Part shown: piece after piece, positions 2,425 to 58,025 of the stretch
Numbering within the stretch: position 1 is the first letter of the stretch
Layout: each line of letters starts with the position of its first letter
Origin: Rhizophagus irregularis
Lineage: Eukaryota > Glomeromycota > Glomeromycetes > Glomerales > Glomeraceae
Assembly: GCF_026210795.1 (NCBI RefSeq)
Contig: NC_089442.1
Coordinates: 3,872,501-3,936,500 of the forward strand
DNA length: 64,000 nt
Direction of reading: 5' to 3'
Position numbers and translations under genes: made by a program
The notes under the pieces: model-generated
What the model was told of the DNA's origin: nothing
The model's database searches: none
What the model saw: only the letters and a program-made list of their open reading frames with translations

Positions 2425-3251
2425 CCATTTCAAGTTAATGTCAGCCCAGATTTAGCCAAAATTTAAGTACTTTGAGTCGTTAGGTTTTTTTGTTGGATTT
2501 AAAAAAAAAAAATTGCTAAAAATCTTTTTGTACCTTGTACCTTTTTATTTATAACAGCTTAAAAACACTATTATAGAGCTTGAATGTTGAGAGAAAAGGA
2601 ATTAAAGGAATGTGAACTTATTTTAAGAGAATGAGAAGCAAAAATTTGTGTAATTGAATTAATTGAATTATCTAATCTTGAAAACGGAACGTGAATTAAA
2701 TCAAAATTAATGTTTAATTATTAAGCTTAGAATACTATAAAATTAATAATTCAATCAGTTCTAATTAAATTAGCAGTGTAAGAAAATAAGAAAGACTACA
2801 ATATAAAGTATTATTTTATAAACATAACAATATACATTATACAGTATAATAAAATAAAAAGGATGTAAATAAACATAATAAAAATAAATTTAAATTAAGC
2901 TGTTGAGTATAAGAAAATACAACCGAGTATAATATCGTCATACTATACTCAGCAAGACCTTTTTCCGGGAGTTTATTTTTATCAAAAATATAATTTATAT
3001 AACTTTCCATACACCAAATGGTTTCTTGCTTTTCTCAAATTAATAAATATTATTTATTTAATAGAAATCATTATGAAAAATAATTTAGGAATAAAAAATT
3101 AAAATAAAAAATTAAATAACTGAAAATAATTAATGGCTATTATAATATTAATTAATATAAATAAAAGAATTGATAAATTAAGTGTACGATTATGCCCTAG
3201 AGTTAAATGCGTGGAGCTCAACAATAATTACGGATAGTATCTTAGGCCCTA
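2425..3251. other. AT-rich stretch without recognisable gene
   Basis: Very AT-rich sequence with no supportable exon. It lies 3' of the micro-exon gene on the minus strand and may hold its 3' UTR. Confidence 0.4.
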
Positions 3252-4355
3252 TTAGAGAATAATTGAATTATGTTCTTGGTGGTTGTTATTTTCGCGAAGC
3301 TGAAGCTGGGATATAGGCTATTTTCCCTCATGTTCGATACTTACGACGTCCTGTTTGTTATTAAAAAATAAATAAAAATTAATATTTTCAAAAAAAAAGT
3401 GTGGTTAATAAATGCCACTGCGTTAATGAATTAATGAATATACTTACGCTGCAGCCTATTTATTAAATAAAAATTAACAATTAGCAGTTAATATCTTTCA
3501 AAAATAAGTGTAAACATAATAATAAAGATACAAACTATTTATTATTTAAAGTAAAAAGGAAAATTAACGATTAGTATTCTCAAAAACATGCTGTATATCA
3601 ATAATAAAGATAGCGAAGATACTTACCACCTATTTAAAATAAAATAAAAAATTATTCAGTTAGCAGTGAGTGTTTTTCAAAAACAAGCGCTACCATAATA
3701 ATAACGGTTATGAAGATACTTACATACTGTTTGTTATTTAAGCGATAGAAGAAAAATTGCATTTATTAATATTTTTTAAGAACAATAACATTGTATATAA
3801 TAATAATGATAACACTTACCTTCTATTATTTATTTAAAATAAAAGAGAAGATAAAAAAGTTAATATTTTTTTAAAAAACAATAACATCGATAATGTCAAC
3901 ACTTACCCGCGCCTATTTATATACATATATATATATTAAAAAAAGAGGGTTAAATTTAAATATTTTAAAAACATAATACAGTAATAACTGTTATGAAGCC
4001 GATACTTACAGCCTATTTATTTTTTTAAGTAAAATTTATTAGTTAGTATTTAAAAAAATAGGTACCATAAAATAACTACAACAATGAATACTTACAGTCT
4101 ATGTATTATTTAAAATTAAGTAAAAGGAAAATTAAAGTTTGATATTTTCAGTTAACAATGATTCGCGAACTTTTAAGGTTTGATAATAGTAATACTTACA
4201 ATCACCTATTTATTAATTAAGATGAAATAAAAAGGTAACATTTAATTATTTTAATAATCATAATGAAGTTACTTACAGTCTTTTTCAGCAACTGGTAACG
4301 CTAAAGCGGCAACAGAGAAGATAATCAAAAAGAGAAGGAAGATATTGAATTTCAT
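3252..4355 (-). CDS. Putative secreted micro-exon peptide gene (12 exons, about 49-62 aa)
   Basis: Unrecognised gene. Exon 1 (4355-4277) encodes MKFNIFLLFLIIFSVAALA then LPVAEKD, a classic cleavable signal peptide, and ends at a GTAAGT donor. Ten micro-exons follow, each between a T/A-rich ..TAG or CAG acceptor and a donor: 4205-4200, 4098-4096, 4012-4010, 3912-3907, 3822-3820, 3726-3724, 3629-3627, 3534-3532, 3455-3448, 3350-3345 (lengths 6,3,3,6,3,3,3,3,8,6). A last exon at 3317-3252 ends in TAA. All donors are GTAAGT except the one after 3532 (GTATCT). Joined, the frame is open throughout and adds CDYCCAEVCVCCSDV, giving 62 aa. The last 27-nt intron is suspiciously short; if it is retained, translation stops at 3318 after DVVSIEHEGK, giving 49 aa. 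The introns resemble one another, so the locus grew by tandem duplication of micro-exon plus intron units. A secreted effector-like peptide is my inference; transcripts are needed for proof. Confidence 0.55.
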
Positions 4356-51345: not shown

Positions 51346-54300
51346 TTAAGTTTCCATTGCTTCATCTTCTTCTTCACTATCTTCTGCTCCTTCTTGTGCT
51401 TTGATTGGTAAATCAAATTCTTGATCACATCCTGAATAAGAATCTGACATAAAGAATAATTTTAATGAATGTTCACCAGCTTCTGATGGACATGTGAAAT
51501 CTAGTTTTACACTAAGAGATTTGTTTAAAGTAACACGTTTAATGCCAAGTAATGAATTCTTTTCCGTGTCACCAATAACAATCCACCATCCTTCATCTTT
51601 TTTATGAGGGAAAAATGGAGCAATTACCGGTCCTACAACTTCATCATCTTCTTCATCAACTTCACGAATAAGTTTCACATCAAGAGCACCTTGAGAACCT
51701 GCAACAAGTTCATCTTCGTCCCTTATACCAAACTTGACATCGATACTGGGATATCGATTAACATAGCGAGCAACTTCATATAATTGTCGTCCATCCATTT
51801 GAAGTATCTCATTTCGTTCATCGTCTTCGAGTTCCATAATGCCAAAAACATTATCAATTTCTCTTTCTTCACAGCGTTTAATAACATCTGCCATGAAATA
51901 AGGTATTTGTTTTAATGGTGATTCACTATCCCATAGAGCCTGAACACACATCTGTGCTAATTCCATAGAAGCTAATGCAGGTTTTAACCATCCACTGGAA
52001 CTTATTACGTCAACTATTGATTGAATCAAAGGAATAACTTTACCCAACACAGCTGTTTGATCAGATTGCAAATCTGGTGGTAATTGTGTTCTTGAAAAAT
52101 GAGCTTGTAGTAAAATATTAGTTTTAATATGCGGAGAATTAAATTTCGGATTTCCAAGTTTAACTGGTAGTCGGTCATATATCTTTTTAAGAACGGTATC
52201 TTCATGATGACGAACAGGAATAGATTCAAATTCAGCCGCTGACGATAAGATTTCTAAAAGCCCCTTGAGTTTGGTCTTTTCATTCAAACTCATACTAAAC
52301 ATCTCAACGGTAGTGTAACTAACATTATAATATGCAGCAATCATGCCTAAATTAAGTGGTGTTACGTCTAGTTCGTCTTCTAAAGCAATACATTTTGAAG
52401 CTGATAGATCGTTGACAGTTGTTTCAACTAATTCGGATAAATGATCTGATAGATGCCTATGATCAGAGCCTTGCATACCATAATAATTCGGATTTTCTAC
52501 CATACGACGATATAAAAATGTCCAAGTTAGATAATCGACAGCATCTTGTTTATTCTCAATAGTTTTCGTGACAACTTCAGCATTGAAATGATCATGTAAG
52601 AAATGATCCAAATGTGACTCTACGGGTAATGCTTCGTATAAGAATTTTTTATAAAAGTCTTTTTTGATTGCTTGACACATCAATACACAGCGACCAGTAT
52701 CATCATGTTGTGGTCGACAAGCCCTACCCATCATTTGAAGAACATCAGTTATTGGATAATCAGCATATCTATGCTCTTTACCCTCAAAGAATTGAGTTCC
52801 CATGACAATAACCATATGACAACTCAAATTTATACCCCAGCATGTGTCACGTGAAGCTACTACAACTTGTATTGCTCCACTTTCAAATAATTCTTCTACA
52901 ATTCGTTTATCTTGTTTACTCAATGCTTCGTGATAAAAACCAACTCCATGTTGTAGAGTTTCAGCCAAAGCTTTATCATTTATTTGTTTCAAATGATCTT
53001 CAATATCACTCGCATGTGCATGAAGGAAACGATCCGTTGTTCCATCAGCTGCACAGAAAGTGAGTAAGTCTACGGCAGTAAGTCTACATTGCTTACGTGA
53101 TGGTACAAATACAATTGCTGGTCTATCGGACGAATAATTCGTAATGGCGACATATGTTGGTTTAGCCATAGCCATCATGAGTGAAGCAAAATGAGGAATG
53201 CTGTAACTCTGGATATGAATTTCTAATGGTACAGGACGAACACTAGGATGAAAATTAAAAATGGTATGAGGGGTAGAACCGATCCACTCTCCGAGGTCTT
53301 GAGCGTTGGCTAATGAGGTACTTAAACATACAATACGAATTGGATTCTTTGTTTGATGAGCAATATAACGCATTCTTGAAACAATAATTTCGTACGTTGG
53401 TCCAACGTCACTGCCAATCAGATGTAATTCATCTGCTATGAACAATGCTACGGTTTGAACGTTTTTACGTTGTTTCCATCGACGGGACATTACATCCCAT
53501 TGTGTTGGTGTAGCAAAAATAACATCACCACTTTCAAGTAAACGAAGGTCTGCACTTGTTTCACCGGTAAGTGCCACTATGTTTTTTCCACCTTGAATTT
53601 TACCAAATTTTTGTCTCCATTGTGCAACTTGAAGATCAACAACTTCTTGAAATGGCGCGATATATACACAGCGTCCGTGATTCGGAGTAGACCATAATCG
53701 AAGGAGTGCGAATTCAGCGCAAACAGTTTTACCGCTTCCTGTGGGAGCTCCAACAAAGACATTATCGTTCATGTTATATAAAGCATTGAATACCTGGGTT
53801 TGAATAGGGTTAAATTTATCAACCCATCCATTATATACAGCTTCATATTCACGATTGCGTAATGCTGATACAGGTAAAGGCTGCATATCAAGCAACTCTG
53901 TGTGTGGTGGATACTTTTTTGGAAGTATTAAATGTCTAAATGACATAGGTAATTTTGTTTCACAATGTAACCAACGATCCGAGATAATGGAAATAAAATA
54001 ATTTGGTGGAAGAGGCTCAAAAAGCGGTACAGTAAATGTTATAACATGATCCTCTTCAGCGTATTTTTGTTTGAGTATAAATGAATCGTGGTATAATATA
54101 ACTTCCCCGTCAACGTCTTCAACTACAACCCAAAAAGCTTCGGCCGTACCATGAACTTTTTCATCCCACATAAAATCGGGAGTAATTTTAAGTTCCACTC
54201 GTAGTAATGATCTAGTAATTGGTTGGACGTAAGTAACAAGCTCCAATTTTGGAAATTGATGAATAAATTTATGAATCAACTTTCCAACTTTAGGTATTCC

Positions 54301-57300
54301 AACAAGTTCACCAATCTCTTGTGGATTCAAGTCAAAGTATCTTTCCCAAGGAAAATCCTTCTTTTCTATTTTTTTAACTACTTCCATGGGCATTTGTTTA
54401 AATTGACGTAATGGTGACATCGAAAGCCACATACGCCTTTCTACCATTTTACAAAGATCTAAAGCCCTTCTAGATAATTGAGACCAACCTCGTTTAAGGC
54501 ATATTTCAAACATTGCTCGAAGGATTCTACTTGCTGACTGCGTAATATAAACCATATCAGAAACAAGAGCAAAACCGTCAAGCTTAAGTTGTGAAATGTA
54601 AGCTTGTAAAAGAACATTAATTTTGGAAGTTGGCTCTTCAATGCCTTCTTTTACAGGTATAGGTACACGTTCAAGTAATTTAGATAGTTCAAGTTTTTCC
54701 TCCTCACGAACAGGAATATACTTGAATTCATCAGAAAGTGCGAATACACGAAATAATTCAATATGACCCATCATAGGTTTCAAGTGCTGGTTATAAGTCG
54801 ACATTGAAGTGTGTGTAATATAAAAATGTGAAGCAATACGGCCCAATTCAGTAACCTGGAATCTACCAGTCTTTTTATCATACTTCATCAAATTAGATTT
54901 ATCCAACAACATGCCAGCTGAATGAATTAAGTCTACACGTTTTTGTTCAAGATACGGGTCTTCTTCCAAATAGTCTGTTGAAATACCATAAAGAGTAGGA
55001 TTACGTAACATACGAACATATAAATATGTATATCCTAACCACTGAACTGCTTCATCTCTGTTTCTTACAGTACCCAAAACTATTTCTGCATTCAAGTTGT
55101 CAGCCAATTTACTGACAAACTGACTTTCAATTGGTAATTGTTGATTAAGTAGAGATAAATAATATTGAAGCTCATTATGAGATGTTATAATTATGCCTTC
55201 ACCAAAGGTATCATATTGTGGACGACCAGCACGTCCTAACATTTGAAGTACATCCTGAGGACTTAATTCTACCCAACGACCTTTTTCAGGTGAGTATACC
55301 TGAGTCCCTTTAATAATGACTGTATGTGCAGGTAGATTGACACCCCAAGCTAATGTTGCCGTGGACACAAGAACTTGAATATGTCCGTCAGCAAACAAGT
55401 CCTCAACTGTGGTACGATCAGTACGTGACATTCCCGCATGATGTATAGCGAATCCGAAAGGTAACAACTCGTAAAGGTTTGGATCTTTTATACTTGGAAG
55501 CTCATCTTGTAAAACTTCCCTACTGGCTGAACTAGGATTAAGAAATAATCTAAGTGTATCTTTTTCTAATGCCATATCTTTAATCGTTTTTGCCGTTTTT
55601 GCAGTTTCTTTTCTTGAATGAACAAATATCAATACTTGATTCTTTCCAGCTTGTTCTACGACTTTTTGATAGGTAACTTCGTTCATAACTTGAAACCGTT
55701 TGATTGCTTTCTTTTCTGTGACACCAATAAATTCCTGTTTTAATGGACATGGACGAAATGAGCTGTCGAAATGGAACAAGCCTTTCTTTGGATCTACACG
55801 TAAAAATGTAGCTACATCGCCATAATTAGGAAGTGTAGCTGAAAGTCCCACTAATCTAATCATTTCTTGAGTTTGCTCCATGTGGCGAATAGTACGAGAT
55901 ACAATGCTTTCTATTACAGGACCTCGATCGTCATGAAGCAAATGTACTTCATCAATAATAATAAGCCTAACAAGATTTGTATAACTTCTATCGGTTGCTT
56001 TTCTTGTTATAACATCCCATTTTTCAGGTGTAGTGACTATAATCTGTGTTTCTGAAATTTGCTGTTTAGTGAGTTGACGGTCACCAGTTAATTCAGAAAC
56101 CTTAATACCGTATTGTTGTAATCGAGAAGAAAAGTTGCCAACCATCTCTTGTACAAGAGCCTTCATTGGAGCAATATATACGATCTTAAAGGCATCTGTA
56201 TCAATAATACCTGTTTCTTCATTACGATTTTTCTCCATCTCATTAAGAATACACAGCATGGCAACATTTGTTTTTCCTGAACCAGTTGGTGCACAGACTA
56301 ATAAATTTTCATCCTGTTCAAACGCAACTGGATAAATTTTACTTTGTATACGATTAAGGATTCTTGCACCTTTGAAGGCACCATGTACCCACGGAGGAAG
56401 CTCTTCAATTGATATGAGCCTTTCATTTTCTGCATGTGGTTTTGGTTTTGGTGCTGGGACATGAATTTCTTCATAACCCTTTTTGGTACTTTTAAATGAT
56501 CCCTCAGGCAATTTACATGTTTTATTTGACATTACATGGCCACCTTGAGTAAACATTAAAGATTCTAAGTCTATTACTGCTTTCGGTGTTGCCGTTGTAC
56601 CAGGAGGTAGCGTAGCTTTGACAGCAGCTGGTACCGGACCATGAGCCAAAGCAGGTTTATCATCAATTTCCATTGCATCCTCCACAACACCTTTACGTGC
56701 GGCACCTTCTCCACGACGGATTCTTTCTCCACCAAGATCCCTCAAAATCCATTCTAGTCCATGTTCACGCATTTCACGTTCAATATTTTGACGTTCCGCC
56801 CCATCGGTACCAGCTCTAGCTAGCTTAGTACACCATACAATTAACTCGCGATTACGTGTTAATATCTTTACAAGATCGAATTTGTCATATTCAAATAAAG
56901 CCATCAACTCATTTTCGCAATCTCGTGTATTTACGTCTGATGCAAGAATCTGCATAGTGCTTGAAGTTTTTTCTTGTGCTGTATGTGGATCTGAATAATA
57001 ATTAGCTACCAAACGTTGAAGCCAAAAGGCATCAATATCGTGTGGTGATATTTTTTGTTCTGTCTGTGCAGAGGTAATTTTTCTGGATTTCGATATTTCA
57101 GGTCCTAAAACTGTTTTAAACCCTTCGTTTTCTTCATCTGTGACAATCTCTTTGTCTTCATCATCCTCAACTTGCCCTACGCCCAACACTCCACTTGTCT
57201 CTGCTTCTACTCCTTCATCATCTTCCTCTTCTTCCCCTGATTCAACCTCATACGTTCCGTATTCATCTTCCTGTTCTTCCTCTTCATCAAAAACTACAGC

Positions 57301-58025
57301 AACACCTAATTCATCATCAATTTCTCCTGCAAGATCTCCCTCTTTATCGAGATCCATTGTCTCTCCTGTATGATAATCTGTTATTTTTTTACCTAGATTA
57401 ACCAACTGAGCAAACCGATCAGGTGCAATTGTACCGATGAAAGACTCAATTTCTCTTTTTTTATCAAAATCTTTAAGATTTTCATTCTTCAGTATTTTTA
57501 ATATATCATCTGCAGCACTACGAATGACATCTTGAGCCTGATCGCCAAGGTTTTGGTGAACAAATGCCAATATTAGTTCATATGTCTCCCGGGTTTCCTT
57601 TGTCCTTGGTCTATAAGATTGTTCATCGAAATATTCTGTTGCAGCTAGTACATTGGAATAACCATATGCTTTTTTTAATGCACTACAAAATTAATAAAAT
57701 ATTTAAAATTAGCTTTGTTAAGTTATCAAATCGTAAAGATCAAAATAAATGAACAGCAAAATAACCTTTCTTCTTTTCGACGTTTCTTCTTTTCTTCAAC
57801 CTCAGCAACATGTTTGGCTTTTTTCTTTTTCGCTTGTATATCATTTAAAGTACTCCTTTGAGCTCGGCTACCAAAATCTTTTGGGTTAATTTTGCCCCAT
57901 AACGACTCCGGCTCGCCGGAAGGTTCATGATCTCTTCTTGGTAATTCAGATCTATTGGCCTGAAGGACAAGATTTGAATTTGCAGTGTATTGATATTGAT
58001 TTCCCCTTGCAATTTGCTCAGCCAT
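51346..58025 (-). CDS. BRR2: U5 snRNP helicase Brr2 (SNRNP200), 2198 aa
   Basis: Two exons on the minus strand: 58025-57766 and 57682-51346, giving 2198 codons plus stop. This DExH RNA helicase unwinds U4/U6 snRNAs during spliceosome activation. The N-terminus has the [20 protein letters not shown] block typical of Brr2, a basic coiled stretch, then a long acidic region ([20 protein letters not shown]). Cassette 1: [14 protein letters not shown] at about residue 550, [62 protein letters not shown], followed by a Sec63 domain. Cassette 2: [20 protein letters not shown] at about 1397, [13 protein letters not shown], and degenerate helicase motifs ([23 protein letters not shown]), as expected for the inactive regulatory second cassette, then a second Sec63 domain and an acidic tail. 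Length is close to the yeast and human proteins. The start is 179 bp from the divergent CCT7 start. Confidence 0.96.

Follow-up and report, generated by a model that had tools for sequence, protein, structure and literature searches.

A putative gene of tiny exons for a cysteine-rich peptide, and ladders of predicted 3-nt exons, in Rhizophagus irregularis

We found that a locus of Rhizophagus irregularis most probably constitutes a micro-exon gene for a small, Cys-rich and probably secreted peptide, a reading that rests on sequence comparison and to which we assign a probability of roughly 0.9. The locus lies in the window, by which we mean the whole analysed stretch of 64,000 nt (G000:C14:3872501-3936500, in a genome of 146.7 Mb in 32 contigs). 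Beyond this gene, it is likely that one-codon exons are a general construction principle in R. irregularis: long ladders with a total of well over a thousand 3-nt exons, belonging to two or more unrelated protein families, would each encode a protein segment residue by residue, duplication of units and skipping of exons would vary secreted peptides and kinase linkers at single-residue resolution, and the exons would have been missed since gene finders and read mappers hardly see exons of 3 nt. If true, ladders with dozens of 3-nt exons would put intron recognition by the spliceosome to an extreme test, stepwise intron-defined splicing would be able to build a protein codon by codon, and the public annotation of a model mycorrhizal fungus would lack, or give wrongly, a set of secreted peptides and kinase N-termini. 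A search of the open-access literature by title and start of abstract, with subscription journals mostly outside its scope, returned no description of 3-nt exon ladders.

Results

The initial annotation had described, on the minus strand, a signal-peptide-like exon followed by ten exons of 3 to 8 nt, and all of these were recovered where it had placed them (Table 1). As it had also reported, nine of the ten micro-exons carry a GTAAGT donor, the odd one out being TTT, followed by GTATCT. Exon 1 encodes a hydrophobic N-terminus that by inspection resembles a signal peptide and is similar in six genes, namely, the window gene and five paralogues. The introns measure, in order, 71, 101, 83, 97, 84, 93, 94, 92, 76 and 97 nt. 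When the exons are joined, the frame stays open and gives CDYCCAEVCVCCSDV, the whole joined product being MKFNIFLLFLIIFSVAALALPVAEKDCDYCCAEVCVCCSDV followed by an end set by the choice of last exon. The claim that this product is open and Cys-rich stood. The place of micro-exon 10 is taken in the paralogue models by GCTGC (C6), GCTGCGAT.. (C29) and two GCT exons (C21).

The density of splice-site pairs sets the locus apart. The pattern [CT]AG-N(1-12)-GTAAGT occurs at 10 sites (one nested in another) in the 1.1-kb ladder region and at 6 sites elsewhere in the 64-kb window, both strands counted. Markov resampling of the window, repeated 60 times, gave 1, 2 or 3 such sites in the densest 1.1 kb, and the contrast of 10 sites with at most 3 rules out a chance origin of the window ladder. 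Genome-wide, AWTAGGCTGTAAGTA occurs eight times, each time inside a ladder of the peptide family (8/8), and its reversed control pattern occurs once. Elsewhere in the window, positions 51346-57570 of the minus strand form one unbroken frame of 2,074 codons, which we take to resemble a Brr2-type splicing helicase.

Table 1. Coordinates and properties of the predicted exons, peptide genes and ladder loci (plain positions are those of the window)
Feature	Position	Strand	Length	Remarks
Exon 1	4355-4277	-	79 nt	encodes MKFNIFLLFLIIFSVAALALPVAEKD and first base of next codon; ends in phase 1
Micro-exon 2 GTGATT	4200..4205	-	6 nt	
Micro-exon 3 ACT	4096..4098	-	3 nt	
Micro-exon 4 GCT	4010..4012	-	3 nt	gives Cys codon split T|GC
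Micro-exon 5 GCGCGG	3907..3912	-	6 nt	
Micro-exon 6 AAG	3820..3822	-	3 nt	
Micro-exon 7 TAT	3724..3726	-	3 nt	acceptor CAG
Micro-exon 8 GTG	3627..3629	-	3 nt	
Micro-exon 9 TTT	3532..3534	-	3 nt	weaker donor GTATCT
Micro-exon 10 GCTGCAGC	3448..3455	-	8 nt	codes C-terminal Cys-Cys; phase 1 to phase 0
Micro-exon 11 GACGTC	3345..3350	-	6 nt	GTAAGT donor
Alternative terminal exon	3318..3350	-		reads through GTAAGT of GACGTC to stop TAG; DVVSIEHEGK*
Last exon fitting the initial annotation	3252..3299	-		LRENNNHQEHNSIIL*; doubtful
Segment 89-93% identical to C3 locus	2801..3317	-		breakpoint ~3317; query ended at 2801
Window peptide gene				3n internal exons 8/9 (GACGTC left out); Cys in ladder part (exon-1 frame) 6; tail CDYCCAEVCVCC
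C5 peptide gene (L009)				3n 6/6 up to break (interrupting sequence at L009:2368-3294 and beyond); Cys 3
C6 peptide gene (L010)				3n 12/14; Cys 6; tail RDCPVKCCWVGGYCVCC
C29 peptide gene (L014)				3n 9/9; Cys 6; tail RGCCFCVGGRSCLAICC
C32 peptide gene (L015)				3n 7/7; Cys 4; tail DGCCWCVGFVTC
C21 peptide gene (L016)				3n 16/16; Cys 6; tail WCDGCLGCKGNCAICC
1-nt exon A	L035:8572		1 nt	between ladder and kinase exon; also in L034, L036-L039 and the C16 and C21 ladders
3-nt ladder loci	L018/L031, L019/L029, L032/L025, L034-L042, L044, L020, L021			

The 3' end of the window copy is less clear. The last exon proposed in the initial annotation was not supported: it sits inside a segment, with its breakpoint near 3317, that also occurs at an unrelated C3 locus, in which our ladder scan found no ladder. 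Possible in-frame ends include the TAG at 3318 (DVVSIEHEGK), the interval 3299-3252 (DV-LRENNNHQEHNSIIL) and an exon that begins at 3248 (DV-GLRYYP). It may be that the window gene is itself a truncated family member.

Searching the genome with the window DNA returned 18 matches, the window included, and five paralogous ladders were identified, on C5, C6, C29, C32 and C21, the C5 and C6 paralogues of exon 1 having been found by protein comparison. Across the six genes, 58 of the 61 internal exons, counted in the full gene models, are multiples of 3 in length, a count that is not blind, since the paralogue models were hand-drawn from AG and GT sites with the frame in view. The two C6 exons off a multiple of 3 measure 5 and 20 nt. 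Micro-exons of 3 nt are the commonest, exons of 6, 9 and 12 nt also occur, and the introns span about 70 to 165 nt. Some models needed weak acceptors (AAAAAG and AAATAAG in L014 and L016, AATAAAG in L010), and those of L014 to L016 needed weak donors (GTAACT, GTACGT, GTAAGG and GTATGT). Between the window and C5 genes, the first six introns are 87 to 94% identical and five of the six contain gaps of 1 to 24 bases, while the length differences among seven exons compared are only 0 or 3.

In the ladder parts of the six genes, the frame of exon 1 holds 31 Cys residues in total, compared with 0 and 6 in the other two frames. The six joined tails (56 exons of 3n length) contain no stop, against 3.8 expected when the exon order is shuffled, and only 3 of 2000 shuffles were as stop-poor as the real order; in this test, the L014 and L015 lists ended in a piece of the terminal exon and the L010 list stopped before the last exons, so that they differ from the models used for the length counts. 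In C21, a stop formed across the last join directly follows the tail. The five complete models predict products of 47 to 77 aa without visible repeats. In the C6 peptide (L010:1291-1129, minus strand), the Cys tail is followed by KTKR and DFVEVDGIFYEKNYVSA, a possible dibasic processing site.

Not every copy is intact. In the C5 copy, the ladder breaks off behind the sixth micro-exon, where sequence unlike the other ladders, harboring a 308-codon frame, interrupts it. Two C11 copies (L011 and L012), in which by eye no start exon was seen and several donors are lost, were left out of every count as decayed; their loss of donors is the decay expected once constraint is gone.

Public protein records gave an independent view of the C6 gene. 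The C6 model of 16 exons, fixed before the protein search, is identical over 68/68 aa to NCBI RIR_jg32637.t1, the sole match of the search, filed under Rhizophagus irregularis DAOM 181602 = DAOM 197198, and this public model carries the residues of all fourteen internal exons. Together with the 3n lengths and Cys tails of the paralogues, this agreement makes a Cys-rich, signal-peptide-bearing micro-exon product, as originally suggested, the best reading. A profile search with all six genes returned six proteins, comprising R. irregularis records and one JGI protein. Among them, RIR_jg26108.t1 includes the C29 stretch VGGRSCLAICCDQK, which our model can produce only from five or more micro-exons in a row; the public protein differs from our model in starting further upstream without the signal peptide start, in omitting two micro-exons, a hint of alternative splicing, and in its end. 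RhiirA1_470119, RhiirC2_781697 and 20438_t:CDS:2 match the window, C32 and C21 genes over the first two to three exons, RhiirA1_470119 being identical to the window gene over exons 1 and 2, and then leave the ladder, reading into an intron. The JGI protein seems to run into intron 1 of a gene resembling those of C29 and C32. No intronless or retro-copied C6 peptide was recognised among its four genome matches, each of which covered only the first-exon or the last-exon end.

A pattern search also led to loci with up to dozens of successive intervals of exactly 3 nt. We modelled 15 ladder loci with a splice-site model that has no term for frame or exon length and whose weights were trained on sites beside 3-nt exons. 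Among the 499 exons modelled, 460 measured 3 nt, the smallest ladder having 4 three-nt exons (C23) and the largest 60 (C21). In L035 and L036, the ladder lies between exons encoding MGQCIGK... and a protein-kinase domain, and the models stay open over their full 429 and 433 aa; that of L035 matches PF07714 (PK_Tyr_Ser-Thr) at E=4.1e-42 over residues 99-348. Among the matches listed, a kinase lies downstream of the ladder at 13 or more of the 15 loci, the match of L041 lying about 6 kb beyond the fetched stretch, and none of those listed lying downstream of C23a and C28a.

An in-frame join that runs from the ladder through a 1-nt exon A into the kinase exon, reading E/D-F-G-(K/Q/R)-S, was obtained at 8 of the 15 loci, the 1-nt exon being needed to reach the kinase frame. 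The count stops at eight because at the other seven loci the kinase-exon pattern hit the wrong place (C5a and L044) or found no 1-nt exon (L042) or no kinase exon (C23a, C28a, L040 and L041). Searching the genome with the kinase N-terminus, a query that held two extra Gly at exon joins, gave 151 matches (150 scored candidates). Most of those listed begin past the ladder, near residue 70; some begin earlier, at residues 41-67, several of these with stops, and no intronless or retro-copied N-terminus was recognised among those listed. In a search of 5.8 billion proteins, the L035 linker gave two candidates, none at E<=1, so that the kinase linkers are without outside support.

The modelled introns share their signals. 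GTAAGT is the donor in 452 of 514, under a model that favours GTAAGT, and a branch-point-like CTAAY or TTAAC lies 11 to 60 bases before the acceptor in 364 of the 488 ladder introns of at least 75 nt, compared with a mean of 142.5 when letters were shuffled. In four kinase genes compared, the donor of a kinase-domain intron is GTATGA or GTATAT. The strong ladder donors would fit the need for strength where a donor has no helpful exon bases beside it. Among 173 non-redundant units, the splice sites are conserved and the exon bases carry 0.1 to 0.5 bit, a profile that speaks weakly for the reading, as the model that selected the units had itself been trained on such splice sites.

We then compared stop codons in the real and shuffled exon orders. 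The joins of the kinase ladders lie in phase 1, where only 1 of 441 joins formed a stop, against 17.4 expected with the exon order shuffled; the minimum over 2000 shuffles was 6, none (0/2000) being as low as the real order. In phase 2, by contrast, there were 72 stops against 55.7 expected. Phase 0 is also stop-poor (3 of 469 exons), and the argument therefore rests on the contrast with the shuffled order and not on the low count. Leaving out L035 and L036, where the frame was first seen, gave 1 stop in 372 joins. Shuffling takes exons as exchangeable, and block duplication lowers the number of independent joins, which is partly corrected by counting each ordered exon pair once: 1 stop in 242, against 5.6% expected. 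The single phase-1 stop lies in C21a, whose model has several long or odd-length exons resembling misparses. In all these counts, an overlooked intron was assumed in long NNN-GT..AG-NNN exons (60-130 nt), each of which thereby contributed two exons of 3 nt, and the joins excluded every other exon whose length differed from 3 nt.

Spacing in the whole genome points the same way. TAG-NNN-GTAAGTTATTTATTTA occurs at 1,649 sites, TAG-N(4-12)-GTAAGTTATTTATTTA at 23 and TAG-N(1-2)-GTAAGTTATTTATTTA at 7, with 2 at a spacing of 4 bases alone; the spacing is thus exactly 3 in 1,649 of the 1,679 sites with spacing 1-12. Several clusters, among the first 100 listed of the 1,649 sites, lie directly upstream of kinase matches, for instance C2:1347447-1355375 before C2:1355749. 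Satellite DNA as the sole explanation was ruled out, mainly by the stop test and the spacing counts.

Discussion

In the mechanism that we propose, the introns are short, their donor being GTAAGT in almost all cases and their acceptor TAG or CAG, and splicing would most likely proceed stepwise, by intron definition: exon 1 would be spliced to the tiny exon nearest to it, and the joined product would use the next donor. With such stepwise joining, a 3-nt exon would never be recognised as an exon. Since nearly every exon length is a multiple of 3, with most exons in phase 1, the skipping, gain or loss of an exon would change single residues and keep the frame intact. Ladders would grow and shrink by duplication of an intron-plus-exon unit of about 100 bp, a process to which near-identical neighbouring units point in the kinase ladder L036 and which for the peptide genes we infer. 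The mature product is probably a short peptide whose Cys residues, six at most, probably form disulfide bonds; it would act outside the fungus and make an effector candidate. In the kinase genes, the same device would write an N-terminal linker, one codon per exon.

The ladders could instead be non-coding, that is, intronic tandem repeats with splice-like sites used in recursive or nested splicing, whose 3-nt pieces are absent from the mRNA. The near-identity of some adjacent units in L036 is minisatellite-like, the kinase linker has no database protein, and public models need not rest on reads, because TopHat-type short-read mappers can hardly show exons of 3 nt. For one published DAOM-181602 annotation, AUGUSTUS was given intron hints from RNA-Seq reads that TopHat had aligned (PMC6123716). 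However, a non-coding repeat does not account for codons that avoid stops after joining in phase 1 and not in phase 2, for the exons of 6, 9 and 12 nt in the peptide family, for the 1-nt exon that the kinase frame requires, or for a C6 peptide that is annotated exactly, and we regard this explanation as very improbable. Somewhat less improbable, though still unlikely, is that exon skipping dominates, exon 1 being mostly joined to the last exon and the micro-exons being rarely used inserts. Exons of 3 nt are frame-neutral and the public C29 model lacks two of them, but the public C6 model includes the residues of all its internal exons, and the micro-exons hold most of the Cys pattern.

A stronger competitor, which we consider possible although not favoured, concerns the window copy alone: it could be a relic, a former micro-exon gene truncated at about 3317, with functional members elsewhere (C6, C29 and C21). 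The sequence beyond 3317 is common to an unrelated locus, the C5 copy is broken, and the C11 copies are decayed. On the other side, all ten introns up to GACGTC keep their GT/AG ends and the frame, several of the possible ends yield an in-frame stop, and the public RhiirA1 protein keeps the first two exons unchanged. A micro-exon gene for a probably secreted Cys-rich peptide is the preferred reading of the window locus.

The architecture recalls the micro-exon genes (MEGs) of schistosomes, whose products are secreted and carry an N-terminal signal peptide, and whose long chains of very short exons, mostly multiples of three, are hard for automatic annotation (PMC10526429). The R. irregularis peptide genes share the chain of short exons mostly of 3n length, and several of their public models likewise leave the ladder. 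MEG exons, however, measure 6 to 81 bp (3 to 81 in the abstract), mostly 15 bp, with 10 to 20 per gene and introns of about 0.1 to 5 kb (PMC10526429), whereas 3 nt is the commonest size in R. irregularis and the introns of the window gene measure 71 to 101 nt. The searches with the C6 peptide (1 protein) and the six-gene profile (6 proteins) returned no homology to MEG proteins, which short divergent peptides could escape, and the resemblance appears to be one of architecture.

The SP7-like effectors of the same fungus also have a signal peptide and paralogues scattered over chromosomes, together with hydrophilic repeats, a conserved intron and, in several cases, an NLS; the text of that source does not use the word microexon (PMC11333574). 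In contrast, the ladder peptides are Cys-rich and show no imperfect hydrophilic repeats with conserved islands, and, having no repeat, they have no intron before a first repeat. Membership in the SP7-like family was ruled out by the lack of repeats and by the Cys-rich products of 47 to 77 aa. The bicycle genes of aphids are effector candidates with many small exons, but they are insect genes and their exons are larger than the R. irregularis micro-exons. They are cited for their exon-intron structure in PMC11333574.

Very small exons are known elsewhere. A single-nucleotide exon keeps the frame of Fusarium CYP621A (PMC12940212), another is described in Arabidopsis (PMC4674806), and plant microexons are tiny and missed by annotation (PMC8831610). 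The 1-nt exon A before the kinase exon, needed for the frame, resembles the first two, which according to their abstracts are single cases and not ladders; nor does the accessible text of PMC8831610 describe plant microexons as ladders. Another array with a multi-exon-like appearance was seen on C3 and C12 (L022:1447-2429 and L023:1563-2671, minus strand), with intervals of about 21 to 30 nt between AG and GTGAGT or GTAAGT.
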